Origin: Sulfurimonas lithotrophica | GTDB lineage: Bacteria > Campylobacterota > Campylobacteria > Campylobacterales > Sulfurimonadaceae | DNA length: 64,000 nt | Assembly (NCBI RefSeq): GCF_009258225.1 | Contig: NZ_CP043617.1 | Coordinates: 434,001-498,000, forward strand | Reading direction: 5' to 3' | In this document: piece after piece, positions 23,122 through 52,164 of the stretch | Layout: every line of letters starts with the position of its first letter | How positions within the stretch are numbered: position 1 is the stretch's first letter | Program-made: the position numbers and the translations under genes | Notes under the pieces: model-generated | What the model saw: only the letters and a program-made list of their open reading frames with translations | What the model was told of the DNA's origin: nothing | The model's database searches: none

Positions 23122-24634
<1,513 letters not shown>

Positions 24635-24773
24635 CTAGAGTAAGAGCAACTATTCGTTTAGTTGGCTCAGAAAAGTTCTCACGAACTAATTAGTTGTTAG
24701 AATGTTGCTTACTTAGTTTTCAGTGATCTGTGATCATTGAAGATACAATCACAAAAAAAGTTTAATCAGTTAT

Positions 24774-24849
24774 GGGGAATTAGCTCAGCTGGGAGAGCGC
24801 CTGCCTTGCACGCAGGAGGTCAGCGGTTCGATCCCGCTATTCTCCACCA
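24774..24849 (+). tRNA. tRNA-Ala (TGC)
   Basis: A 76-nt cloverleaf in the 16S-23S spacer. The acceptor arms GGGGAAT and ATTCTCC pair, the D loop is TAGCTCAGCTGGGAGAGC, the anticodon loop CTTGCAC gives TGC (alanine), the T arm is GGTTCGATCC and CCA is encoded. It is the only tRNA in this spacer; the tRNA-Ile that often accompanies it is absent. Confidence 0.96.
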
Positions 24850-24882
24850 TTAAAATTAACTTTTTATGTTCATTTAAAATAC

Positions 24883-25039
24883 AATTGTTAAAGTCAACAA
24901 CTATAGTTAAAGAAACTAGTTATAGATAATTTATTAGATATAACGATAGGTCAATTTAATTATAACAACTAAATAACTACAATAATAAGATTACTGACTT
25001 GTTTGAGGTATTAAAGTACATTAAACAAGGTAGTGAAGC
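24883..25039 (+). other. 5' arms of the 23S rRNA processing stem
   Basis: Bases 25013-25039 pair with 27941-27967; the inner 17 bases (AAACAAGGTAGTGAAGC with GCTTCACTACCTTGTTT) are perfect. An outer helix is formed by AATTGTTAAAGTCAACA (24883-24899) and TGTTGACTTTAACAATT (27973-27989), also perfect over 17 bp. The rest of the spacer between tRNA-Ala and 23S shows nothing else. Confidence 0.85.
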
Positions 25040-25046
25040 GAATTAG

Positions 25047-27940
<2,894 letters not shown>

Positions 27941-28007
27941 GCTTCACTACCTTGTTTAGTGTATTAAGTTGCTGTTGACTTTAACAATTCTATACAAACA
28001 ACTTATA

Positions 28008-28051
28008 CAATCAAATATAAGTACATACTACGATGTATTTATACTTGATTG
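28008..28051 (+). other. Processing hairpin between 23S and 5S rRNA
   Basis: Arms at 28008-28026 and 28033-28051 are complementary over 19 positions with one mismatch and one G-U pair, closing a 6-nt loop. The hairpin ends where 5S begins, so it likely guides cleavage. Confidence 0.6.
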
Positions 28052-28168
28052 TCTAGGTGGCAATAGAGAGAGGGAAACGCCTGGCCCCATTCCGAACCCA
28101 GAAGCTAAGCCTCTCATCGCTGATAATACTTGTCCTTTCAGGATTGGAAATGTAGGTCGCCGCCTAGT
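28051..28168 (+). rRNA. rrf: 5S ribosomal RNA
   Basis: About 118 nt. The ends pair (CTAGGTGGC with GCCGCCTAG). The conserved loops GGAAACGCCTGGCCCCATTCCGAACCC and GAAGCTAAGCC are present. Ends are approximate. A T-rich stretch follows, without an obvious terminator hairpin. Confidence 0.92.
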
Positions 28169-38358: not shown

Positions 38359-39374
38359 TGAAATCAATATTGTTAACAGGGACTGCAGGTTTTATAGGGT
38401 CAAATTTCGTACCTTACTTTTTAGAAAAGTATTCAGATTATAAACTTATTAATCTAGATCTTTTAACTTATGCAGGTAATTTGGAGAACCTAAAAGAGTG
38501 TGTGGATAACCCAAGATATAAGTTTATTAAAGGTGATATATGCAACCGTGAATTAGTAGAGTTTATATTTAACGAATACGATATTGAAGGTGTTATACAT
38601 TTTGCAGCAGAATCTCATGTTGATAACTCTATTAAAAATCCGGGAGTATTTATAGAAACAAATGTAAACGGAACTTTTACACTTATAGACGTAGCATATA
38701 AATACTGGATGGAAAAACCTTTTACATATAAAGAAAAATATAAGAAATGTAGATTTCATCATATATCAACTGATGAGGTATATGGAACTCTAAGTGATGA
38801 TCCAAAAGATCTCTTTACTGAAGAGACACCATATGCTCCAAACTCTCCTTATTCAGCTTCTAAAGCATCTAGTGATATGGTAGTTAGATCTTATCAGGAA
38901 ACTTATGGATTAAACACTGTTATTACAAACTGTTCAAACAATTACGGTCCAAAACAACATGACGAGAAACTTATTCCTACAATTATAAGAAAGGCATTAG
39001 CTAATGAAGCTATCCCAATATACGGTGACGGTAAGAATATTCGTGATTGGTTATATGTTCTTGATCATTGTAAAGGTATAGATAGAGTTTATCATACAGG
39101 TAAAGAGGCGAATGTTTATAATATAGGTGGACGTAATGAGCGAACAAACCTTCAAATAGTAGATAGAATATGTACAATACTTGATGAAAGAGTTCCAAAA
39201 GAAAAATCATATAAAGAATTGATTACTTTTGTTGAAGATAGAGCTGGACATGACAGACGTTATGCCATAGATGCAACAAAGTTAGAAAATGAGTTGGGCT
39301 GGAAAGCTGATGAAAATTTTGACACAGGAATAGTTTTAACTATTGATTGGTATTTGGAGAAATATGCTATTTAA
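38358..39374 (+). CDS. rmlB: dTDP-glucose 4,6-dehydratase RmlB
   Basis: A 338-residue SDR dehydratase producing dTDP-4-keto-6-deoxyglucose, the branch point for both rhamnose and the Fdt-type sugar encoded at 47-49 kb. Signature: LTGTAGFIGSNFVPYFL, HFAAESHVDNSI, FHHISTDEVYGTL, YSASKASSDM (YxxxK), NNYGPKQHDEKLIP and DGKNIRDWLYVLDHC. Start chosen at ATG 38358, directly at the end of rmlD with GGGAGA upstream. The longer frame starting at 38328 lies inside rmlD. Confidence 0.96.
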   Translation: MKSILLTGTAGFIGSNFVPYFLEKYSDYKLINLDLLTYAGNLENLKECVDNPRYKFIKGDICNRELVEFIFNEYDIEGVIHFAAESHVDNSIKNPGVFIETNVNGTFTLIDVAYKYWMEKPFTYKEKYKKCRFHHISTDEVYGTLSDDPKDLFTEETPYAPNSPYSASKASSDMVVRSYQETYGLNTVITNCSNNYGPKQHDEKLIPTIIRKALANEAIPIYGDGKNIRDWLYVLDHCKGIDRVYHTGKEANVYNIGGRNERTNLQIVDRICTILDERVPKEKSYKELITFVEDRAGHDRRYAIDATKLENELGWKADENFDTGIVLTIDWYLEKYAI

Positions 39375-40821
39375 TTCACAAGAGTTTATCTTTTTATTTT
39401 TACCTATAACATTCTTTTTATATTTCTTTTTATTAAACAGAAGGTTAGTTGTAGGTGCAAAGGGATTGTTGGTCTTTGCATCATTGTTTTTTTATAGTTG
39501 GTGGAATATAGCTTATCTACCTATCATTTTAAGTTCTATGCTTTTTAACTATGTAGTCGGAAACAGTTTAAACGAAAATTTTTCTAAAGTAAAAGTTTCT
39601 AAGAAACTATTGCTTGGTGTTGGTATAGCTGCTAACTTATCATTACTTGGTTATTTTAAATATGCCGATTTTTTCATAAGCAATTTTAACTTGGCATTTG
39701 ATAGTAATATGGATTTATTGCATCTAGCACTACCTCTTGCAATCAGTTTTTTTACTTTCCAACAAATAGCTTATCTTGTAGATAGTTACAGGGCTGAAAC
39801 AAAAGAATATGATTTTTTAAATTATGCTCTGTTTGTTACTTTTTTTCCTCAGTTAATTGCAGGTCCGATTGTACATCATAAAGAGATGATGCCACAGTTT
39901 GCATCTAGATGGAACTTGGTTAAGAACTATAAAAATATAGCACTAGGTTTATTTATATTCTCAGTTGGTTTATTTAAAAAGGTAGTAATTGCTGATAAGT
40001 TTGCTATTTGGGCAACGGCAGGATTTGATAAAGCAGAGACATTAACTCTAATAGAAGGATGGGCTACATCACTTTCATATACATTTCAACTGTATTTTGA
40101 TTTTAGCGGTTATACAGACATGGCAATAGGTGCTGCACTACTGTTTAATATAAAACTACCTATAAACTTTAACTCTCCATATAAAGCAAAAGATATACAA
40201 GACTTTTGGAGAAGATGGCATATTACACTATCAAGATTCTTAAAAGATTATATATATATCCCACTAGGAGGAAATAGAAAAAGTAGCTTTAGAACATATA
40301 ACAACCTTATGGCTACATTCATACTTGGTGGATTATGGCACGGTGCAGGATGGACATTTGTGTTTTGGGGATTCTTACACGGTGCAGCTCTAGTAATACA
40401 CAGAGCATGGAAAAGCTTTGGTTTTACAATGAATTCAATACTTGCTTGGTTTATAACATTTAACTTTGTAAATATAGCATGGGTGTTCTTTAGAGCAAAA
40501 GAGTGGGATGATGCTATCAAAGTCTTAAAAGCTATGGCTGGTTTGAGTGGGATTGAATTCTCAACTAAATATGCACAGAAGCTATCATTTTTAAGTGACT
40601 ATGGTGTTACTTTTGGGCAGTGGTTACATAATATAAACGGCTCAAAAAGCATATCTTGGATATTTATAGCTTTATTAGTTGTTCTTATAGCTAAAAACTC
40701 TATGCAATTGCGTGAATCATTTAAACCTAATAAGTGGTACTTAATATTTAGTGTATCAATGGCTTTATATGCTATTTCAAATTTGAATAAATTATCAGAA
40801 TTTTTATATTTTAATTTTTAA
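39364..40821 (+). CDS. MBOAT-family O-acyltransferase (AlgI-like)
   Basis: A 485-residue multi-pass membrane protein that should move acetyl groups across or onto extracytoplasmic polysaccharide. AlgI landmarks: NSQEFIFLFLPITFFLYF at the start, LPLAISFFTFQQIAYLVDSYR, FPQLIAGPIVHHKEMMPQF, YFDFSGYTDMAIGAALLFNIKLPINFNSPYKAKDIQDFWRRWHITLSRFL and LGGLWHGAGWTFVFWGFLHG with the invariant His. Start at ATG 39364 after GGAG; it overlaps rmlB by 11 bp. It is followed directly by SGNH-like genes, the partner type known from alginate acetylation (AlgI with AlgJ/AlgX). Confidence 0.93.
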   Translation: MLFNSQEFIFLFLPITFFLYFFLLNRRLVVGAKGLLVFASLFFYSWWNIAYLPIILSSMLFNYVVGNSLNENFSKVKVSKKLLLGVGIAANLSLLGYFKYADFFISNFNLAFDSNMDLLHLALPLAISFFTFQQIAYLVDSYRAETKEYDFLNYALFVTFFPQLIAGPIVHHKEMMPQFASRWNLVKNYKNIALGLFIFSVGLFKKVVIADKFAIWATAGFDKAETLTLIEGWATSLSYTFQLYFDFSGYTDMAIGAALLFNIKLPINFNSPYKAKDIQDFWRRWHITLSRFLKDYIYIPLGGNRKSSFRTYNNLMATFILGGLWHGAGWTFVFWGFLHGAALVIHRAWKSFGFTMNSILAWFITFNFVNIAWVFFRAKEWDDAIKVLKAMAGLSGIEFSTKYAQKLSFLSDYGVTFGQWLHNINGSKSISWIFIALLVVLIAKNSMQLRESFKPNKWYLIFSVSMALYAISNLNKLSEFLYFNF

Positions 40822-40831
40822 TGGATAATAA

Positions 40832-41902
40832 TTGAAAACATCTAAAAAGTTTGTATATATTTTCTCATTAACATTAGTCTTTTTTTTAATGTTTAGTTTT
40901 TTTACATATCACAAGTATGTTAAGTATGTAAACCCGACTGATTATGTCATTGGTGATTTGGTTAGAATGTCTTATCATAAAGGATTGGCTTTACCTAGAT
41001 ATAATGAATTTAATTTATCAAAACGACATATACACTATAATGATTATAAAAAACAGAATGTAGATATGATTACAATTGGTGATTCTTTTAGCAATGGGGG
41101 AGGAGGAGGTTTAAATAGATACTATCAAGACTATATAGCCACCTATAACGAGCTTGATGTTTTGAATATTCCTCAATTGTCTGGAACAAATAGTTATTTG
41201 GAAACAGTTGTTTTGTTATGTAATAGTGGATGGTTGGAAAGAAAAAAAATTAAATATGTTTTAATTGGATCTGTTCAAAGATTTGTGATTGACAGATTTG
41301 CAAAAGATATTAATTATGATTTAAATACTGATGCAAATATTGATCAAGAAATAATTAGTTCATATGACTCTTATAATCCAAAAGATGAAGATAAACAACA
41401 AATTACTTTTATAAATAATTTAAATTTAAATGCTTTAACATACAATTTAAATTTTCTTGTTAAAGGGTATGGTAAAAACAAGAAGTATTATATAGAAAAG
41501 TTAAATAATGATTTTTTTACTTCTGAAATTAAAAATGAACTACTTTTTTTCTATGATGATATTCGAGTTTTAAAAGATGAAACACTAAAAAATATTAAAA
41601 AAGTCAATGATAACTTCAATAATTTAGCTAAATTACTATCAAATAAAGGGATAAAATTGTATTTTATGCCATCAGTAGATAAATATAATTTGTATAGTCG
41701 TTATATAACCAGCAATAAATATACTCAAAGTGTATTATTTGAAGAATTGAGAAAACTACCAAAAGAATATATCTTAATAGATACAAAAAACATACTATCT
41801 AAAGAAATAGAGAGTGGTGCAAAAGATATTTTTTATCCAGATGAAACACATTGGTCATATAAAGCAAGTAAAGCAATTTTTAAGAGTGTTAAAATTGAGT
41901 AA
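40832..41902 (+). CDS. AlgJ/AlgX-like SGNH protein 1, membrane-anchored
   Basis: A 356-residue protein with one N-terminal membrane helix and an extracytoplasmic domain. The nucleophile block is MITIGDSFSNGGG, and the terminal Asp-His block is FYPDETHWSYKASKAIF, the pattern of AlgJ/AlgX-type SGNH acetyltransferases. It should take acetyl groups delivered by the MBOAT protein just upstream and add them to a polysaccharide. Start is TTG at 40832. It is a more distant paralogue of the next two genes, and overlaps the second by 8 bp. Confidence 0.75.
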   Translation: MKTSKKFVYIFSLTLVFFLMFSFFTYHKYVKYVNPTDYVIGDLVRMSYHKGLALPRYNEFNLSKRHIHYNDYKKQNVDMITIGDSFSNGGGGGLNRYYQDYIATYNELDVLNIPQLSGTNSYLETVVLLCNSGWLERKKIKYVLIGSVQRFVIDRFAKDINYDLNTDANIDQEIISSYDSYNPKDEDKQQITFINNLNLNALTYNLNFLVKGYGKNKKYYIEKLNNDFFTSEIKNELLFFYDDIRVLKDETLKNIKKVNDNFNNLAKLLSNKGIKLYFMPSVDKYNLYSRYITSNKYTQSVLFEELRKLPKEYILIDTKNILSKEIESGAKDIFYPDETHWSYKASKAIFKSVKIE

Positions 41903-42977
41903 TTATAAAAAATATGTTTATATATTTTCACTGCTATTTCTTTTTAGTATTGGCTTTCATTTAACAGTTTGGAATGTTATATCTAAAAAGGTACTCTTAA
42001 CTGATAAACAAATCTATAGAGGTGATTTAGGTCGTACATCATTTAAAGTAGATAGCATCAACTCAAGGCCTTCTTATTTGGTAAAAGAAGCTAGAAATTT
42101 GCCTAAAAAGCATATAGTGTATAAAGATTTAAAACCTAGAGAAACAGTTGATGTAATCACTATAGGAGATTCATTTGCAAATGCTGCCACTCAGGGAATT
42201 AATCCATATTTTCAAGATTATATTGCTACATATAATGACTTTAAAGTACTAAATATACTTCCCCATTTTGGAAATTTTATAGAAACTATAGCTGTTTTTT
42301 ACAATTCAGGATTACTTGATGAACTAAGCCCTAAAGCTATAGTTATAGAGTCTGTTGAAAGATTTTGTATTCCTAGGTTTATCTCAAAATTAGATTTGTC
42401 TAAAAATATAGATAAAAGCAGACTAAAAAAAATTTTAGCAAAAGGTATAAATTTTTATCAAACTAAAGATCCATACATTAGTTTTATTAATTCTCAAAAT
42501 TTTAGAGCCGCAAGTTTTAATATACAAAGAGTATATAATAACTACGGAAATTATAAATTTGCTATTTTATCTCCAATGAAAAGAGACTATTTCAGTACTA
42601 AAGACTCTAACACCTTGCTATTTCACAGAGAAGATATTGAAAATAATTATTTAATTACAAACGAGAATATACAGAGTTTAAACAACAATTTTAATAAGCT
42701 TGCCAATAAACTTAAGAATAAAGGGATAAAACTTTATTTTATGCCGGCAGTAGATAAATATAATTTATATGAGCCATATATTGAAAACAACAGTTATCCA
42801 AAGAGTCAATTTTTTGAAATTTTAAGAGGGTTACCTAAAGAATATGAGTTAATAGATACAAAGGCTATACTTTCACAAGAGCTAAAAAAAGGTGTAAAAG
42901 ATTTATATTATGCAGATGATACGCATTGGAGTTATAAAGCCAGTGAAGCTATTTTTAAAAAGGTAAAGTTTGAATAG
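41895..42977 (+). CDS. AlgJ/AlgX-like SGNH protein 2
   Basis: A 360-residue paralogue with a membrane helix (YVYIFSLLFLFSIGFHLTVW), nucleophile block VITIGDSFANAATQGINPYFQDYIATY and terminal YYADDTHWSYKASEAIFKKV. Start chosen at TTG 41895, which overlaps the preceding stop by 8 bp exactly as the next copy does; a longer frame into the previous gene is not believable. Its last ~300 bp are nearly identical to the next gene, while the middle (about residues 165-255) differs strongly. Confidence 0.75.
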   Translation: MSNYKKYVYIFSLLFLFSIGFHLTVWNVISKKVLLTDKQIYRGDLGRTSFKVDSINSRPSYLVKEARNLPKKHIVYKDLKPRETVDVITIGDSFANAATQGINPYFQDYIATYNDFKVLNILPHFGNFIETIAVFYNSGLLDELSPKAIVIESVERFCIPRFISKLDLSKNIDKSRLKKILAKGINFYQTKDPYISFINSQNFRAASFNIQRVYNNYGNYKFAILSPMKRDYFSTKDSNTLLFHREDIENNYLITNENIQSLNNNFNKLANKLKNKGIKLYFMPAVDKYNLYEPYIENNSYPKSQFFEILRGLPKEYELIDTKAILSQELKKGVKDLYYADDTHWSYKASEAIFKKVKFE

Positions 42978-42988
42978 ATTCAAAAAAT
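42669..42988 (+). repeat. Direct repeat copy A (3' end of SGNH gene 2)
   Basis: This 320-bp block recurs at 43744-44063 with one base difference (GGGATAAAACT versus GGGATAAGACT), offset 1,075 bp. It covers the last ~100 codons, the stop and the first codons of the following gene. Confidence 0.95.
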
Positions 42989-44052
42989 ATAGCTTTTTAT
43001 TTGTACTATTTGTTTTAATAAGTGTTTTGTTTCATACTGTTGTTTGGCATATGATCTCAAAAAAAGTACTTTTGGTTAATGATGATCTATATAATGGTGA
43101 CTTGGGGCGAATTTCTTTTAAAACTGACAGTATTTATCCTAGGCCTTCTTATTTGGTAAAAGAAGCTAGAAATTTGCCTAAAAAGCATATACTGTATAAA
43201 GATTTAAAACCTAGAGAAACAGTCGATATAATCACCATAGGAGATTCCTTTGCAAATGCTGCTACTCAGGGAATTAATCCTTATTTCCAAGATTATATCG
43301 CTACATATAGTAATTTAAAAGTGCTAAATGTTTTACCATACTTTGGGAATTTTATAGAAACAATTGTAATTTTTGATAATTCAGGATTACTTGATGAGTT
43401 AAAGCCAAAAGCTATTTTAATAGAGTCTGTTGAGAGGACTTCGTTGCTAAGGTTTGGAGTAAAACTTAATTTTGATTTATTTATGGAAAAAATAAAATTG
43501 GTTGAAAAACTTAAAATTCAAAAAAACTCATATGTAATGAAAGATAATATGATAAATTTTATTAATAATCAAAATACTACTGCATTGTTAAATAACATAG
43601 AAATAAAACTTAAAAAATATAAGAAGTATGATAAATTGTCTATGGTTAAGTTAAACAATGATTTTTTTAATGTAGATGATAAAAATTCTTTATTGTTTTA
43701 TAATGAAGATATTGACGGAATAAATATAACAAGTCAAAAATCCATACAGAGTTTAAACAACAATTTTAATAAGCTTGCCAATAAACTTAAGAATAAAGGG
43801 ATAAGACTTTATTTTATGCCGGCAGTAGATAAATATAATTTATATGAGCCATATATTGAAAACAACAGTTATCCAAAGAGTCAATTTTTTGAAATTTTAA
43901 GAGGGTTACCTAAAGAATATGAGTTAATAGATACAAAGGCTATACTTTCACAAGAGCTAAAAAAAGGTGTAAAAGATTTATATTATGCAGATGATACGCA
44001 TTGGAGTTATAAAGCCAGTGAAGCTATTTTTAAAAAGGTAAAGTTTGAATAG
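42970..44052 (+). CDS. AlgJ/AlgX-like SGNH protein 3
   Basis: A 360-residue tandem duplicate of the previous gene, again with TTG start inside the previous stop. It keeps a membrane helix, IITIGDSFANAATQGINPYF and YYADDTHWSYKAS. Residues about 57-130 are close to copy 2, the C-terminal ~100 residues are identical but for one Lys/Arg change, and the middle third is unrelated in detail (for example RFGVKLNFDLFMEKIKLVEKL). That mosaic suggests recombination or gene conversion acting on the ends while the middle diversifies. Confidence 0.75.
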   Translation: MNRFKKYSFLFVLFVLISVLFHTVVWHMISKKVLLVNDDLYNGDLGRISFKTDSIYPRPSYLVKEARNLPKKHILYKDLKPRETVDIITIGDSFANAATQGINPYFQDYIATYSNLKVLNVLPYFGNFIETIVIFDNSGLLDELKPKAILIESVERTSLLRFGVKLNFDLFMEKIKLVEKLKIQKNSYVMKDNMINFINNQNTTALLNNIEIKLKKYKKYDKLSMVKLNNDFFNVDDKNSLLFYNEDIDGINITSQKSIQSLNNNFNKLANKLKNKGIRLYFMPAVDKYNLYEPYIENNSYPKSQFFEILRGLPKEYELIDTKAILSQELKKGVKDLYYADDTHWSYKASEAIFKKVKFE

Positions 44053-44063
44053 ATTCAAAAAAT
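43744..44063 (+). repeat. Direct repeat copy B (3' end of SGNH gene 3)
   Basis: Second copy of the 320-bp block at 42669-42988, one mismatch. It also sets the start context (AAGTTTGAATAGATTC) of the following gene. Confidence 0.95.
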
Positions 44064-45088
44064 TTTCGAAATATTACATATATATCTTAATATTTATATT
44101 TTTGACTATAATAACTACAAATTACATGGTTGATCCATATCAGCAATATAGAAAAGCTTCTTTCTACACATTTTTAGTTAAAAATGAAAGGTATATCAAC
44201 CCCGGTCTAATAAAGCATTATGAGTATGATTCATTACTAATCGGCACATCTATGGTCGCAAATTTTAAATCAAGTGATATTGAAAAAAAGCTTGGATTTA
44301 ACAAAGTTTTGAAAGTACCGACTTTTGGGGGAAATATTTGTGAACAAGTAGAGACAATAGAATTCGCCCAAAAGTATAAAAAGATAAATAATATTTTGTT
44401 TGGATTAGACTTATATTCATTTAGCGGGTTTAACATACCGACAAATATAAAAGAAGATTTTCCTAATTTTTTGTATGATGATTCTGTGTTGAATGACTCA
44501 AAGTACCTATTTAATACAAGAGTTTTTACTAGATCTTTAAAGTCAATAACAAAAAGATATGATGAGAAAAAAATATCTGAACAATTAGATAATTTGTATG
44601 AGTGGCAAAGTAAATATGAAGCAATGTTTGATGGTGGAAACAATGCAAAAACAAACTATTTGTCACAAGTTAATAGATATAAGTCTTTTAGACATTATTA
44701 TAAGTTTGAAATATTAAAAGATAATTTTAATAACTATCTTTTACCTCTCATAGAATCAAATAAAAATATAAATTTTTATTTCTTTTATCCTCCATATTCG
44801 ATTTTATATTATAAGTTAATGCAAAATGCTGGATATTTAGAAGAGTATTTAAAGTTTAAGTCATATGTATTTTCGATTATGAAAAACTATAAAAACATTA
44901 AACTATATGACTTTCAAAGTGAAGATATAGTTACTTGTAATTTAGCTAATTATAAAGATATTACACATTATCATCAGCGTATTAATTTATGGATGCTAAA
45001 TAACATGAGAATGAATACTTACTTAGTATCTAAGGATAATATTGATAAAATGATAAATAAACTTAATGAACAAGTTCAAAGATATTAG
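44045..45088 (+). CDS. SGNH-like membrane-anchored protein 4
   Basis: A 347-residue protein with an N-terminal membrane helix (YYIYILIFIFLTIITTNYMVDPYQQY). A GxS nucleophile-like block DSLLIGTSMVANF and a terminal DITHYHQRINLWML (Asp and His) fit an SGNH fold, but the sequence is otherwise unlike copies 1-3. Its first codons (NRFKKFS) come from the same repeated segment that begins copy 3 (NRFKKYS). Start TTG overlaps the previous stop by 8 bp. Probable role in modifying surface polysaccharide; not proven. Confidence 0.6.
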   Translation: MNRFKKFSKYYIYILIFIFLTIITTNYMVDPYQQYRKASFYTFLVKNERYINPGLIKHYEYDSLLIGTSMVANFKSSDIEKKLGFNKVLKVPTFGGNICEQVETIEFAQKYKKINNILFGLDLYSFSGFNIPTNIKEDFPNFLYDDSVLNDSKYLFNTRVFTRSLKSITKRYDEKKISEQLDNLYEWQSKYEAMFDGGNNAKTNYLSQVNRYKSFRHYYKFEILKDNFNNYLLPLIESNKNINFYFFYPPYSILYYKLMQNAGYLEEYLKFKSYVFSIMKNYKNIKLYDFQSEDIVTCNLANYKDITHYHQRINLWMLNNMRMNTYLVSKDNIDKMINKLNEQVQRY

Positions 45089-45098
45089 CGGAGACTTT

Positions 45099-45917
45099 AT
45101 GGAATATGATGGTTTAGATGTTATCGAAATAGATAGTATCGTTTCTGATAAACTTTTTTCTATGTGTACGCTTGTATCCAATATAGATGAATACAAGTTG
45201 TTGTTGGATTCTGCAAAAAAAGCCGGTTTTAATAATGATAATACAGAGTTTATATATATCGATAATACGCAAGATAATAAATATGATGCTTATGATGGTT
45301 TAAATCAATGTTTAAATAAAGCTAATGGAAAATATTTGATTTTGGTTCATCAAGATGTAGAGTTCAAATTTGATAATATTGAGGTTTTAACAGATAAAAT
45401 TAAAGAAATGAACGAGGTTGATCCTAAATGGGCAATTTTAGGAAATACCGGTTATGATATTAATGATATAAATACCCAATACACAAGAATTACAGATCCT
45501 GGACAGCTTGATGTACATAATGGACCTTTCCCTGCAAAAGTATCGTGTCCCGATGAAAATATTATGATTGTTAAGAATGAATTGAATTTAATGTTTTCTA
45601 AAAACATAGGGCATTACCATCTCTACGGTGCAGATCTTTCGATGCAGGCTCAGATGCAAGGATATCATACATATGTAATAGACTTTCACATACTACATAG
45701 AAGCGGTGGCTATCCAAACAAAAGCTTTTACGATACAAAATACAGAATGATTAAACAGTATCAAAAAGCATTGGAAATGAGGTTTTTTCGTACACCTTGC
45801 AGTCCTTTATTTCTATCTAGTTTTGGAGTATTAAATAAAATAATGAATTCAAAAGCAGTTTACAGCTTGAAAAAAAGAATAGATTCTTTAAGATATAGTA
45901 AAAAGCACTGTGAATGA
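45099..45917 (+). CDS. Glycosyltransferase family 2-like protein
   Basis: About 272 residues from ATG 45099, five bases after GGAG; an upstream ATG at 45066 lies inside the previous gene. It shows GT2-like features: LFSMCTLVSNIDEYKLLLDSAKKAG, ANGKYLILVHQDVEFKFDN (acidic DxE at the usual metal-binding place), WAILGNTGYD, HYHLYGADLSMQAQMQGYHTYVIDFHILHRSGG (acceptor loop with His). The donor sugar is unknown. It sits between two SGNH-like genes and overlaps the following one by 4 bp. Confidence 0.7.
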   Translation: MEYDGLDVIEIDSIVSDKLFSMCTLVSNIDEYKLLLDSAKKAGFNNDNTEFIYIDNTQDNKYDAYDGLNQCLNKANGKYLILVHQDVEFKFDNIEVLTDKIKEMNEVDPKWAILGNTGYDINDINTQYTRITDPGQLDVHNGPFPAKVSCPDENIMIVKNELNLMFSKNIGHYHLYGADLSMQAQMQGYHTYVIDFHILHRSGGYPNKSFYDTKYRMIKQYQKALEMRFFRTPCSPLFLSSFGVLNKIMNSKAVYSLKKRIDSLRYSKKHCE

Positions 45918-46972
45918 ACAATAAATATAGGTCTTATATTGTAAATTTTATAGCCTACATTAGCATCTTTTTAGGTTTACTAATATCGTTTAATATATTT
46001 ATTGACCCTTTGTGGATGTTTACACATAAAAATTTTTTAAATAGTAAACAAATCGATTTTGATGAACGTGAACAAAAAACAAATTATATCAATTCTAATA
46101 GTATAAAAGATTTTGATTCAATCTTACTAGGTAGCAGTAGAAGTACTTTTATAAACCAAAATAGTTTTGCCGGTATGAAAGTTTATAACTATGCCGTCAA
46201 TAGTATGTATCCCACTGAGTATAGAGAATATATAAATTTTTTTAAGGATAAAGTAAATAATGAATTAAAGTATATAATATTGGGAATTGATTTTTTTGGT
46301 ACAAATAAAAAATTTCCTATAAATTTTAATAAACCGTCTTTTTATTTAGACAGAAGTAAGTCTATATTTTATAAATTTAAGAACTTATTATCATATGATA
46401 TGTTTGAATTTTCAAAAAAAAATATTAAAAATTATTTTTATAATAAAGAGCTTATATATTATGATAGAAATAATATAAAGTACCATGATATTGTAGATGA
46501 AGCTACCAGAAAAACAAGATTTAAAATGACTTTGTTAAAGCATATAAATGATTTTAAAGATAAAAACTATGAATATAATGAAAATTATATTCAAATTTTT
46601 GAAAAAATAAAACAAGAAAATAAAAATTCTAAGTTCGTTGTTTTTACGCCACCAGTTACAGCGGATTTATTAGTTGCTTTAATTAGAGATACTAAAAGAT
46701 ATGATGAATATAAAAGATGGTTATATGATTTGATTTATACATTTGACAAAGTTTATCATTTTATGGATATAAACAATATGACAACTAATTTATTAAACTA
46801 TCCGGATGATGATCATATGTATCCAAAGCATATCAATACAGTGGCAAAAATCATTAGTTCAGAAACTAATAAAAAAGATAATTTTGGAGTGCTTTTGGAT
46901 AAAAATAATGTTAAAGAATATTTAGATGAACTTCAAAAAAAATTAAAATACTATGAAGTTAGGTATGAATAA
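45914..46972 (+). CDS. SGNH-like membrane-anchored protein 5
   Basis: A 352-residue protein with an N-terminal membrane helix (FIAYISIFLGLLISFNIFIDPLWMF). The putative nucleophile block is DSILLGSSRSTFINQ and the terminal acid-base block is YPDDDHMYPKHINTV. It is very AT rich: 46381-46440 has only 7 G/C in 60 bases, suggesting a foreign or fast-evolving gene. Likely another acyltransferase or esterase of the surface glycan, by context only. Confidence 0.6.
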   Translation: MNNKYRSYIVNFIAYISIFLGLLISFNIFIDPLWMFTHKNFLNSKQIDFDEREQKTNYINSNSIKDFDSILLGSSRSTFINQNSFAGMKVYNYAVNSMYPTEYREYINFFKDKVNNELKYIILGIDFFGTNKKFPINFNKPSFYLDRSKSIFYKFKNLLSYDMFEFSKKNIKNYFYNKELIYYDRNNIKYHDIVDEATRKTRFKMTLLKHINDFKDKNYEYNENYIQIFEKIKQENKNSKFVVFTPPVTADLLVALIRDTKRYDEYKRWLYDLIYTFDKVYHFMDINNMTTNLLNYPDDDHMYPKHINTVAKIISSETNKKDNFGVLLDKNNVKEYLDELQKKLKYYEVRYE

Positions 46973-47920: not shown

Positions 47921-49021
47921 ATGATACCTTTTTTAGATCTAAAAAAAATAAACAATCAATACAGAGATGAACTTGTTGAAGCTTGTGCAAGAGTTATAGA
48001 CAGCGGATGGTATATCCAAGGGAATGAGTGTAAAGAGTTTGAATCAAATTTTGCAAACTACTGCGGTAGTAAATATGCAGTAGGTGTAGCAAACGGTTTG
48101 GATGCTTTGATTTTAATTTTAAGAGCATATAAAGAGATGGGTATTATGAGTGATGGTGATGAAGTTATAGTTCCATCAAATACATATATAGCTTCGATTC
48201 TCGCAATAACGCAAAACTCTTTAGTCCCTATATTAGTCGAGCCGGATATAAATACATACCTGATAGATGCAAATAAAATAGAAAAAAAGATCACACCAAA
48301 AACAAAAGCTATAATGCCTGTGCATCTATACGGTCAGACATGTGAGATGGATAAGATAAACTCTATTGCAAAAAAGTATAACCTCAAAGTTATAGAAGAT
48401 TCTGCACAAGCTCACGGTGCTTATTTTAAGGATAATAGAGCCGGCAATCTCGGAGATGCAAGTGGATTTAGTTTTTATCCCGGGAAAAATCTAGGTGCTT
48501 TAGGTGATGGAGGAATAGTTACTACAAGCGATAAAGAATTGGCTGAAACTGTAAGAGCCTTGGGAAATTACGGAAGTCATAAAAAGTATGAAAATTTATA
48601 CAAAGGCATAAATAGCAGACTTGACGAGATGCAGGCTGCAATGCTCGGTGTAAAATTAAAATACTTAGATAATGAGATAAAAAATAGAAAAGAAATAGCA
48701 ATGTACTATTTAGAAAATATAAAAAATAGTAGTATTGTTTTACCGACTGTTAGAAAAGAAGATAATCACGTATGGCATGTATTTGTTATACGTTCAAGTG
48801 ATAGAACAAAGTTGCAAAAACACCTATTAAAGTATGATATTCAAACATTGATACATTATCCTATTCCACCGCATAAACAAGAAGCATATTCCGAATGGTC
48901 TAATGAACAATATCCTATAAGTGAACAAATACATGACGAAGTATTAAGTTTACCTATCAGCGGTGTACAGACTATGGAAGATACAAAAAAAGTAGTGGAT
49001 GCGATAAATGAATACAAGTAA
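47921..49021 (+). CDS. fdtB: PLP-dependent sugar 3-aminotransferase (FdtB-like, DegT/DnrJ/EryC1/StrS family)
   Basis: A 366-residue aminotransferase. Landmarks: the N-terminal [52 protein letters not shown], and the PLP lysine in [17 protein letters not shown]. It should place an amino group at C3 of the keto sugar from FdtA. The order ketoisomerase, acetyltransferase, aminotransferase is the same as in other Fuc3NAc/Qui3NAc clusters. Confidence 0.9.
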
Positions 49022-49907
49022 TCCGCTAGTAAGTATAATTATCCCTTTTTATAATCATAACGATTATATTTATAAAACTCTTGATTCTGTTTTGGAAGAT
49101 AAATATTCAAATAAAGAAATAGTAATTATAAATGACGGTTCATCAAATCCGAATGATAGTAATATAACAAAGTGGATAGATAAGAATTCAGAAATAATAA
49201 AGATAAAATATATCAAAAGAGAAAATAAAGGCTTGACTAAAACTTTAAATGAACTAATCTCATTAGCAAAGGGTAAATACATCTTATTATGTGCAAGTGA
49301 TGATTATTTAATTAATAATACTATTAAAAGTAGAGTTGACATTCTGGAAAATAATCCTGACAAATATTTATTGTTGTCAGATGCAATCGTTATTGATGAA
49401 AATAATAATATTATATATGAAAGTAGTCTTTTTGATTTATATAAGGGTAAAAAAGAAAATTATTTTAATGATGATGGATTAAAAACAGAAATCACATCCA
49501 ATTGGTCAGTTGCTGGTGCTACGCATTTAATAAGAAAAGAGTTGTATGATCTAGTTGGACTATATGATGAAAATCTGTTAGTTGAAGATTATGACTTCTT
49601 TTTAAGAGTTGTTGCACGTGATTTTATTTTATATTATGATGAAAAAGTATCAGCATATAGAAGACATGAAACAAATGTTTCAGGTGATATTCTAAAAGAG
49701 TTGAAGATGTTTAAAGAGATTAAAAAAGTAGTTCTTAAAAATTTGTATTTGTTTGATGATAAATACAAACATAAACTATTGACAGTAGTAGAATATTATG
49801 AAGATAAAATGAAAAATTATTATTTAAGAAACTTTATAAGAATTGCTAGAAAAAAAACAAAAAGACATAGAGATAAAGTTAAAAAAATATTTAGAAAGAA
49901 GAAGTAA
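49008..49907 (+). CDS. Glycosyltransferase family 2 protein
   Basis: A 299-residue GT-A-fold enzyme. N-terminal [22 protein letters not shown] and [11 protein letters not shown], then the metal-binding block [12 protein letters not shown], and an acceptor-side [15 protein letters not shown] (ED base). The C-terminus is basic ([19 protein letters not shown]), likely contacting the membrane. It overlaps the aminotransferase by 14 bp, so it may add that sugar; this is inference. Confidence 0.87.
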
Positions 49908-50880: not shown

Positions 50881-52164
50881 GTGTTCAAAAAAATATTAGA
50901 TTTAAAAGTACAATATCAAGACAAATATATCTTAGCAGCAAATTATTTATTTATTGTATATGCATTTTTTTTACCGATATATGCAAAACCTGTAAAAACA
51001 ATTTTTGGAATGGTTTTAGTTCTTTTTTTATTATCTGGAAATATAAAAGAAAAACTACTGTTTGCTTTTAAAGACAAGGTTGTTCAAGCATTTTTATTAT
51101 TTGTTTTAGTGCATTTAATATGGATACTTGGTTCTGAAAACTTAGAGATGGCTGTATTCAAGTTAAAGGAACTAAAATATGTACTATATATGATAGTTTT
51201 CATAGCAGTTATAAGAAAAGATTTTATATATAAAATATTAACCGGATTTTTATTAGGTATCTTTTTTAGTGAAATAGTAAGTTATCTTATGCTTTTTGAC
51301 ATAAGAATACCATATCTGGTTTATACTGGATATGGTGTGAATGTGCCTTTTATGGAAACGTTTACTCAATATAGTACTGTACTTTCAATATCGTTAGGAA
51401 TATTATTGTATGGAATTGTCACAAAAAAGCAAAAATTATGGGTAAAGATAATCTATGTAATGTTTTTTATAAGTGCATCTAGTAATATCTTTATAATCCA
51501 ATCTAAACTTGGATATGGACTATATGCTATTTCTATTTTAACTGTTACTGCAATGATAATGATAAAGTATAAAAAGTACTTTATGCTACCTGTATCATTA
51601 GTATTGATTTTTGGAGGATATTTTATAGCATATAATACAAGTGATATTTTCCATAATAGAGTAAATGATTTTTTTAATCAAACAGAAGCTGCTATTGATA
51701 AGCAAAATTATTATACTTCCACCGGTGCAAGAGTTGGATTTTATGTATATTCATATGAGATTATGAAAGAAAATTTTTTATTTGGAGTCGGTGCCGGTGA
51801 TCATATAGGCGAGTTTAAAAATTACGTAAAAGAGCATGAAACAAATAAAAAAAATATTCACAGTATGTATGAAAATACGAAAAATGGTGAGTATGCCAGT
51901 TTACATAGTGAATTTTTGGATAATACTTTACAGTTTGGAATTATAGGATTATTGGTTTTTCTAAATATATTTTATCAGCTTTTGAGATATCCGTATGATG
52001 ATCACTATATGAAAGTTGTTCAAATTATTTTTATAGTGATATTACTTAGTGTATCAAGTGTTAGTTTAGTATTTTTATATGCGAAGTTAAAGAATATATT
52101 TATATTTTTATCGGCATTGACTTTGATGCATTATCATAATGAAAAACGGCTAAAGCTTCTTTAG
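50881..52164 (+). CDS. O-antigen ligase/polymerase-like membrane protein (WaaL/Wzy_C)
   Basis: A 427-residue protein with about ten to twelve membrane segments. The large periplasmic loop (GYFIAYNTSDIFHNRVNDFFNQTEAAIDKQNYYTSTGARVGFYVYSYE, then FGVGAGDHIGEF and HSEFLDNTLQFGIIGLLVF) matches the Wzy_C signature, including the GARVGFY arginine and the xHSE/FLxxLxxxG block. It probably joins finished O-chains to lipid A-core. Start is GTG with AAGGA upstream. Its last 15 bases overlap the convergent gene inside a shared terminator. Confidence 0.85.
   Translation: MFKKILDLKVQYQDKYILAANYLFIVYAFFLPIYAKPVKTIFGMVLVLFLLSGNIKEKLLFAFKDKVVQAFLLFVLVHLIWILGSENLEMAVFKLKELKYVLYMIVFIAVIRKDFIYKILTGFLLGIFFSEIVSYLMLFDIRIPYLVYTGYGVNVPFMETFTQYSTVLSISLGILLYGIVTKKQKLWVKIIYVMFFISASSNIFIIQSKLGYGLYAISILTVTAMIMIKYKKYFMLPVSLVLIFGGYFIAYNTSDIFHNRVNDFFNQTEAAIDKQNYYTSTGARVGFYVYSYEIMKENFLFGVGAGDHIGEFKNYVKEHETNKKNIHSMYENTKNGEYASLHSEFLDNTLQFGIIGLLVFLNIFYQLLRYPYDDHYMKVVQIIFIVILLSVSSVSLVFLYAKLKNIFIFLSALTLMHYHNEKRLKLL

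Follow-up and report, generated by a model that had tools for sequence, protein, structure and literature searches.

The locus analysed here, in a window of 64,000 nucleotides from Sulfurimonas lithotrophica, places five genes for SGNH-type proteins behind a single gene for an MBOAT acyltransferase and thereby raises the question of how one acyl-exporting protein relates to so many partners. Published descriptions, as far as the excerpts available to us go, assign at most two periplasmic transferases to an MBOAT, and among the titles and abstract openings listed in literature searches none described an MBOAT with more than two proteins of SGNH type. We consider it probable, with some reserve, that the array represents an expanded form of MBOAT-SGNH system for glycan O-acylation, in which one MBOAT feeds several terminal acyltransferases acting on an LPS glycan.

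Layout of the array and its surroundings

The array consists of the MBOAT gene (39364..40821; AlgI/PatA/DltB superfamily), three genes of SGNH family FA, called S1 (40832..41902), S2 (41895..42977) and S3 (42970..44052), the family FB gene S4 (44045..45088), a gene for a GT2-like protein (45066..45917; Glycos_transf_2 and Glyco_tranf_2_5, both below their cut-offs) and a second FB gene, S5 (45914..46972), with the content, order and common + strand given in a preliminary description. The overlaps of 4-8 bp reported there hold for S1/S2, S2/S3 and S3/S4 (8 bp each) and for GT2/S5 (4 bp), but not for the MBOAT gene and S1, which are separated by a 10-bp gap, nor for S4/GT2, where the overlap is 23 bp assuming the first ATG as GT2 start. 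S1-S4 use TTG as start codon. The nearest relative (G002) has these genes in the same order plus one further SGNH gene, so the arrangement is not due to chance.

Heptose genes and an O-antigen ligase/Wzy_C-type protein (50881..52164, + strand; PF04932, E 6.9e-15) belong to the same cluster, whereas the only PF01943 flippase found is encoded outside it; in this setting the acceptor may be LPS core as well as the O-chain named in the preliminary description. A Wzy_C ligase adjoins FA genes in L066, L086 (identical to L117), L100, L101 and L119. Judged by gene content, the array's cluster context is that of an LPS-type glycan, and the proposal that an AlgI-like MBOAT has five SGNH partners inside a surface-glycan locus is supported.

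The MBOAT protein scores 127.4 bits against PF03062 (cut-off 27; E 9.9e-37) and is the sole PF03062 gene product found in the genome. It contains RRWH and WHG (at 325) motifs, candidates for the catalytic His of the active-site funnel, and its C-terminus, SEFLYFNF, fits the FxYxxF acyl-shuttle motif with Tyr482; in PatA this motif carries the acyl-Tyr (PMC12148441). At a distance of about 266 kb from the array, the genome encodes one AT3 acyltransferase, which could feed some of the SGNHs and would then speak against a single MBOAT as their donor.

Two families of SGNH proteins and their link to the MBOAT

All five SGNH proteins have an N-terminal TM segment (one TM-like segment in S1) and keep the canonical block I to block V order, with Ser at 69-93 and DxxH at 298-344. 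The GDSF and DxTHWSYKAS blocks described for S1-S3 are present (Ser85 and D337ETH340 in S1, Ser93 and D341DTH344 in both S2 and S3), as are GTSM and DITH in S4 (Ser69, D305ITH308) and GSSR and DDDH in S5 (Ser75, D298DDH301). In AlgJ and AlgX the order is circularly permuted, with D-x-H before Ser (PMC4148444). Membership of S1-S5 in AlgJ/AlgX was rejected on the unpermuted order in all five, and the comparison with these proteins made at the outset is at most functional.

S1-S3 share 45-70% identity, with S2 and its mosaic paralog S3 at 70% and S1 at 45-48% to either. S4 and S5 are homologous at 25% identity (E 2e-6 in a tiny database), and as queries both lead to one common gene of G006 (E 3e-16 and 6e-11, respectively). 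These alignments place S1-S3 in one family (FA) and S4 and S5 in another (FB). The Pfam model PF16822 (ALGX, cut-off 26.5 bits) matches 35 of 35 FA members at E <= 0.01; S2 lies above the cut-off (28.3 bits), S3 (26.2) and S1 (18.3) lie below it, and S4 and S5 give no match. Neither S4 nor S5 matched any Pfam or NCBIfam family at E <= 1, DltD models included, and FB has no Pfam family of its own.

A first scan of genome contigs with S4 alone found no relative, and a search for a Helicobacter gene pair was equally fruitless. In the survey of relatives, the count of FA and FB genes downstream of an MBOAT ended where the strand changed, where another MBOAT began or where a gap exceeded 200 bp; MBOATs that do not end in FxYxxF were left out (L061, L062, a truncated gene in L058 and the 5' fragments of split genes), L064 lacks an MBOAT, and the two FA pieces of L116 were counted as one broken gene. 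Duplicates (L117, L090, L125, L126 and L120) were removed from the second set, the pairs being recognised by shared anchors or, for L112/L126, where the anchors fall outside the shorter stretch, by equal size and gene offsets. Exactly one FA or FB gene was found downstream of 29 of the 36 MBOATs (26 FB, 3 FA), including three at a locus or contig end (L075, L079 and L081). One such gene thus suffices for most surveyed MBOATs, and five could be redundancy, an observation that runs against a set of distinct transferases. Six of the 36 MBOATs (L052, L053, L055, L059, L060 and L076) had no counted FA or FB gene downstream; among their neighbours (seven genes compared with Pfam) only two, at L059, match a GDSL family, both below cut-off, and at L052 a weak FB-like gene lies three ORFs downstream, picked up by the first profile (E 4e-7) but missing from the count made with the later one. 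These six therefore have other or unrecognised partners.

Across the phylum, FB was present in 127 of 397 genomes and co-occurred with an MBOAT in 122 of them (Fisher P 4e-36), four of the five FB genomes counted as lacking an MBOAT holding MBOAT fragments; scoring covered the five best candidates in each genome, and copies per genome are therefore lower bounds. Because FA or FB is normally the sole such gene after an MBOAT in relatives, S4 and S5 are best taken as genuine MBOAT partners. A status as unrelated neighbours was rejected by the one-to-one linkage of their homologs to MBOATs elsewhere, and the suspicion that they come from unrelated families with other roles finds no footing in the single pairs, the phylum-wide association or the SGNH fold of S5. 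The number of SGNH copies per MBOAT, which the preliminary description had suggested surveying, is thus mostly one, and arrays recur: six SGNHs in G002 and between two and four in records that include Arcobacter and Geobacter, the arrays in G002, G218 and G455 being cut off at contig ends.

Predicted folds and comparison with known systems

Searches of solved-structure sequences with the FA and FB profiles gave chance-level matches only, and a fold comparison was therefore needed. The AF2 model of S2 (pLDDT 93.2, pTM 0.91) resembles SGNH folds of acetyl-xylan esterases and PatB, aligning with 7tog (Z 11.5, 179 aligned, 3.7 A) and with PatB 7tjb (Z 9.7, 165 aligned, 3.6 A), and had one Foldseek match at E <= 1e-3 (8.5e-4). 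The S5 model (pLDDT 82.9, pTM 0.83) is nearest to DltD and SGNH esterases, with DltD 3bma (Z 10.9, 239 aligned, 5.0 A) tied with other SGNH rows, among them the sialate O-acetylesterase 6xpm (Z 10.8, 173 aligned, 3.5 A); its top Foldseek match was DltD 6pfx (E 1.5e-3), with none at E <= 1e-3. An SGNH fold, the first point of the structural check proposed earlier, is accordingly predicted by modelling for S2 and S5 and by homology for S1, S3 and S4, and the Ser...DxxH residues are kept in all five. Both models gave modest Foldseek E-values, the matches of the VIA fold comparison were mostly tied and many were esterases, so the fold match does not separate transferase from esterase; no AlgJ or AlgX chain was among the 50 VIA matches listed for S2 or S5, which excludes nothing. 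In the account of PMC12148441, it is blocks II and III that distinguish PatB from esterases, the oxyanion hole being formed by Gly (or Ser/Asn) of block II and Asn of block III.

The PatA/PatB systems of Neisseria and Campylobacter resemble the array in pairing an MBOAT that has a C-terminal FxYxxF with a membrane-anchored SGNH, Ser first and DxxH last, but they have one SGNH transferase per MBOAT instead of five, and their acceptor is peptidoglycan, with the Ape1 esterase in the operon, whereas the array lies in an LPS-type glycan cluster. The Dlt systems for teichoic acid D-alanylation (DltB/DltD/DltX), known from Gram-positive hosts with one DltD each, likewise combine an MBOAT with an SGNH protein, and the S5 fold resembles DltD. 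Their donor is D-Ala on DltC and their shuttle the separate DltX (PMC12148441), whereas the window MBOAT has its own shuttle tail. More than one SGNH-type protein per MBOAT, as in the array, occurs in AlgI/AlgJ/AlgX/AlgF for alginate and WssFGHI for cellulose acetylation, but these have two periplasmic transferases and a protein of unknown function in place of five SGNHs, and AlgJ and AlgX are permuted, unlike the five proteins here.

These precedents lend some weight to a different division of labour, in which one or two of the SGNHs would be terminal transferases and the rest relay proteins or O-acetyl esterases trimming the pattern. AlgJ, which may relay for AlgX, has a role distinct from it and shows esterase activity (PMC4148444), Ape1 is an SGNH hydrolase encoded beside PatAB (PMC12148441), and the S2 and S5 models fit esterases as well as transferases. 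Against this, many genomes have either an FA or an FB gene alone behind an MBOAT, so neither family depends on the other, and the N-terminal TM segment of all five argues against soluble esterases, though not against a relay, since AlgJ also has one (PMC4148444). We regard such a relay or editing cycle as unlikely, if worth keeping in view.

Rapid change of S1-S3 and proposed sharing of the acyl donor

Compared with their G002 copies, S1, S2 and S3 are 42, 59 and 58% identical, against 81-93% for 14 of the 15 other genes compared (S4 81%, S5 83%, the GT2-like gene 89%), the fifteenth, a glycosyltransferase at 49008, having no G002 counterpart. S1-S3 stand out as a local hot spot of change, and S4 and S5 change about as slowly as their neighbours. 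S2 and S3 have an identical 3' run of 247 nt, and a 258-nt repeat around the S2/S3 boundary (42731..42988, + strand) recurs identically around the S3/S4 junction, including the 8-bp stop/start overlap that marks the cassette boundary. The longest shared run of variable sites was 120 for S2/S3 (maximum of 30 in 10,000 shuffles) and 51 for the G002 pair (maximum of 25), and the runs for S2/g2 and S3/g3, each with its G002 copy, did not exceed those reached by shuffling (P 0.11 and 0.045). Gene conversion seems to have made S2 and S3 alike around their catalytic blocks, whereas the insert that separates these blocks, at about residues 120-245 of S2, is divergent. In the tree of the middle segment S3 groups with S1/g1 (0.75) and not with g3, so descent of the FA copies is not simple.

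The identical 3' run, the repeated junction and the ease with which tandem genes recombine could also mean that S1-S3 are the product of recent tandem duplication in flux, redundant, with the same acceptor, and kept or lost by chance. This is rather improbable: S1 is too far from S2 and S3 in identity to fit easily, the copies keep their full motifs while the inserts diverge, and S. lithotrophica and G002 each carry three FA copies, as do separate lineages. That S4, S5 or others are fed by the AT3 protein or target another polymer, the array being mere neighbourhood, is suggested by the presence of an AT3 gene and by recorded SGNH-AT3 cross-talk, in which WecH can replace PatA in supplying PatB (PMC9558356), but it is very improbable given the distance of that gene from the array, the FB kin that directly follow MBOAT genes in relatives and the FB-MBOAT association over the 397 genomes.

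In the expanded O-acylation system that we favour, the acyl group, for which the acetyl of acetyl-CoA is the likeliest candidate, would be taken up by the MBOAT and bound to the tyrosine in the FLYFNF sequence at its C-terminus. This tail, on the periplasmic side, would pass the group to the active-site Ser of whichever of the five membrane-anchored SGNH partners docks. The final acceptor would be a hydroxyl of the LPS glycan made by the surrounding genes, with each SGNH carrying out the transfer. S1-S3 would be fast-changing cassettes in which gene conversion keeps the catalytic blocks alike and the insert between them diverges, probably altering the acceptor. We infer the shared donor, transferase over esterase activity, distinct acceptors and acetyl as the group; the pattern may be combinatorial, as the preliminary description proposed. 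A more tentative extension, which may well prove wrong, is a hub-and-cassette arrangement, where one acyl-exporting MBOAT serves a rapidly renewed SGNH set, conversion keeping the blocks for docking and catalysis matched to the MBOAT and the insert diversifying the acceptor; surface-glycan acylation could then be changed by swapping a cassette, with the donor untouched.

The arrays bear on two points of the MBOAT-SGNH model, the choice of an MBOAT shuttle among SGNH partners and the sharing of one donor by several of them. Occurring naturally at ratios from 1:2 to 1:6, with fast and slow partners together, they make these points testable by a one-gene swap. The loci also bring out FB, a second family of SGNH partners with a wide distribution in the phylum, and point to a way in which the surface sugars of bacteria might be varied in evolution.

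Composition of the array

Re-reading the window sequence upheld the order and strand that the preliminary description had given for the seven array genes, all on the forward strand: an MBOAT gene (39364-40821), three SGNH genes of family FA (S1, 40832-41902; S2, 41895-42977; S3, 42970-44052), one of family FB (S4, 44045-45088), a GT2-like gene (45066-45917) and a second FB gene (S5, 45914-46972). The overlaps of 4-8 bp claimed there apply to S1/S2, S2/S3 and S3/S4 (8 bp each) and to GT2/S5 (4 bp), whereas MBOAT and S1 are separated by a 10-bp gap and S4 and GT2 overlap by 23 bp. A PF03062 search of the 2.4-Mb genome found the window MBOAT and no other gene. Profile searches with FA and FB (best 5 of 10 and best 5 of 12 candidates scored) recovered three FA and two FB genes, all in the array, and no copy outside it; single-protein searches with S4 and S5, all candidates scored, each returned a single match at E <= 0.001. 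Upstream of the glycan cluster, at a distance of 5-7 kb, the window also contains a complete rRNA operon (16S, tRNA, 23S, 5S; 23122-28168).

Pairwise identity is 45-70% among S1-S3 and 25% between S4 and S5. FA matched Pfam ALGX (S2 above the cut-off; 35 of 35 members of the FA alignment at E <= 0.01), and the 12 FB members tested had no Pfam family: one touched SGNH (E 0.015), one GDSL (0.04) and two matches were to unrelated families. No relatives of FA or FB were found among the sequences of solved structures. The putative catalytic residues (Ser/DxxH) are S85/D337-H340 in S1, S93/D341-H344 in both S2 and S3, S69/D305-H308 in S4 and S75/D298-H301 in S5. In all five proteins the Ser block thus precedes DxxH, the canonical order, unlike the permuted order described for AlgJ and AlgX (PMC4148444). 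Each carries one N-terminal hydrophobic segment, and S5 a second, weak one at 239-257.

Predicted folds, proposed acyl transfer and probable acceptor

SGNH folds had been proposed for all five proteins; structure prediction backed S2 and S5, and S1, S3 and S4 are assigned by homology. The AF2 models had pLDDT 93.2 and pTM 0.91 for S2 (35-sequence alignment) and 82.9 and 0.83 for S5 (12 sequences). For S2, Foldseek placed rhamnogalacturonan acetylesterase (1deo, E 8.5e-4) at the top, together with further GDSL enzymes and PatB of the gonococcus; for S5 the top matches were DltD chains (6pfx, E 1.5e-3) along with esterases of the SGNH type. VIA-align, whose rows were mostly tied for both models, likened S2 to carbohydrate esterase 7tog (Z 11.5, 179 aligned, 3.7 A) and PatB 7tjb (Z 9.7, 165 aligned, 3.6 A), and S5 to DltD 3bma (Z 10.9, 239 aligned, 5.0 A) and sialate O-acetylesterase 6xpm (Z 10.8, 173 aligned, 3.5 A), after a designed scaffold and a putative platelet-activating-factor protein (Z 11.0 both). 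These matches to predicted models support an SGNH fold for S2 and S5 and do not decide between transferase and esterase.

In PatA/PatB, the MBOAT is described as acetylating the Tyr of its own C-terminal FxYxxF; the acetyl group then moves to the SGNH Ser and from there to the polymer (PMC12148441). The window MBOAT shares this tail with PatA, ending in FLYFNF; the related MBOATs counted below all end in FxYxxF, since this was the count criterion. On the simplest reading, one MBOAT shuttle tail would visit several SGNH active sites.

The locus holds rml and fdt genes, glycosyltransferases, a Wzy_C ligase, heptose genes and an ABC transporter; gene order and family matches are the basis for the provisional names rml, fdt, hld and MsbA-like. 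This gene content points to LPS, either its core or its O-chain, as the probable acceptor, and in several other genomes FA genes directly adjoin Wzy_C ligases. The only PF01943 flippase found in the genome lies about 250 kb from the locus. Near this match (733456) and a weak Wzy_C match (740060) is a lone AT3 acyltransferase (747382-748389), a neighbourhood that is perhaps a second glycan locus.

SGNH partners per MBOAT across genomes

An MBOAT was present in 26 of 99 genomes, our own included. Among 36 FxYxxF-ending MBOATs in regions of the other 25, 29 were followed by exactly one FA/FB gene (26 FB, 3 FA), six by none and one, in the nearest relative (G002), by six. Two genomes carry two units in tandem, MBOAT-FB then MBOAT-FA (L066, L084). 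A second set, biased towards FA because its loci were found via FA, comprised 36 MBOATs after removal of duplicate records: 25 with one SGNH, five with two (one of these a single broken gene), three with three, two with four and one with none. Across 397 genomes of the phylum, MBOAT occurred in 213, FB in 127 and FA in 15; 122 of the 127 FB genomes also carry an MBOAT (Fisher P 4e-36), as do 14 of the 15 FA genomes (P 0.001). Five of the six FA/FB genomes without a scored MBOAT hold MBOAT fragments, several at contig ends; in the sixth, G216, no fragment was found. The MBOAT is split into two ORFs at five loci (L051, L057, L076, L084, L087) by frameshift or assembly error and is possibly phase-variable.

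For the proposed pairing of one MBOAT with several SGNH proteins, one partner is the usual number and larger arrays recur. More than one SGNH per MBOAT was found in 7 of 15 FA genomes, the other eight having one FA per MBOAT; draft genomes may hold more copies than were counted, because several arrays are cut at contig ends. The window species has five SGNHs and G002 six (FA, FA, FA, FB, GT2-like, FB, FB), the sixth gene (FB; L063:6668-7759) being absent from the window. In G218 a Wzy_C ligase and a glycosyltransferase lie among three FA genes, and MBOAT pieces stand at both contig ends; G359 reads MBOAT, FA, Wzy_C ligase, FA, FA, FB, as does G457, its ligase presumed from size; G250 reads MBOAT, FB, FA, FB; and G455 has FA at the ends of two presumably joined contigs, one after an MBOAT. 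Among further records, one from Geobacteraceae (L092) has three FA and another (L089, 1418-12221) three MBOATs and several FB/FA in one cluster, one MBOAT directly preceding another and FB, FA, FA following the last; Geobacter, Desulfuromonadales and Sulfuricurvum records (L096, L105, L109, L115) have an MBOAT with two SGNHs.

Divergence of S1-S3 and known systems

In the comparison with G002, which covered 18 proteins and two species, the MBOAT C-terminal part, S4, GT2, S5, FdtA, the FdtC-like protein, FdtB, Wzy_C, HldD and five glycosyltransferases (49843, 52150, 53050, 54647, 55390) are 81-93% identical; identity to the counterparts g1, g2 and g3 drops to 42% for S1, 59% for S2 and 58% for S3. 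The GT2-like gene within the array is 89% identical to its G002 copy, and its kin lie near MBOAT/FA loci of other genomes (L085, L086, L115, L118, L123, L124). The glycosyltransferase at 49008-49907 has no counterpart at the G002 site, where a different glycosyltransferase-like gene stands (L063 9728-11224); this replacement adjoins the changed SGNH set.

At the nucleotide level S2 and S3 are identical to 96 and 89% in a pair of 30-codon blocks around GDSF (alignment columns 61-120) and to 99-100% across the final 85 columns, where DDTHWSYKAS lies. Identity falls to 43-62% over columns 151-270, with 76-79% in the blocks that flank this stretch. The g2/g3 pair is homogenised around GDSF (89-99%) and not at the 3' end (72-77%); cross-species pairs have 70-79% in the GDSF region. 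Variable sites agreed over at most 120 in a row for S2/S3 (maximum 30 in 10,000 shuffles) and 51 for the G002 pair (shuffle maximum 25); the longest runs for S2/g2 (11) and S3/g3 (14) fell within what shuffling gave (P 0.11 and 0.045; 2,000 shuffles). Segment trees joined S2 with S3 in the GDSF (support 0.998) and C-terminal (1.0) segments and S2 with g2 in the middle (0.98), in agreement with S2/S3 being a probable mosaic, although g2+g3 had a support of only 0.52 in the GDSF tree and S3 grouped with S1/g1 (0.75), not g3, in the middle. A stretch of 258 nt at the S2/S3 junction is repeated exactly at the S3/S4 junction, running through the stop/start overlap. The S1-S3 region appears to be a hot spot of local change in which gene conversion has taken place.

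A 2014 paper distinguishes systems of a single protein, of two (an MBOAT with one transferase in the periplasm) and of four (an MBOAT, a pair of periplasmic transferases and a protein of unknown function) (PMC4148444), and a precedent for partner sharing is reported in WecH, an AT3 protein that could stand in for PatA with PatB (PMC9558356). A single MBOAT followed by five or six SGNHs from two families, with apparently gene-converted cassettes, goes beyond these known classes and the WecH precedent.
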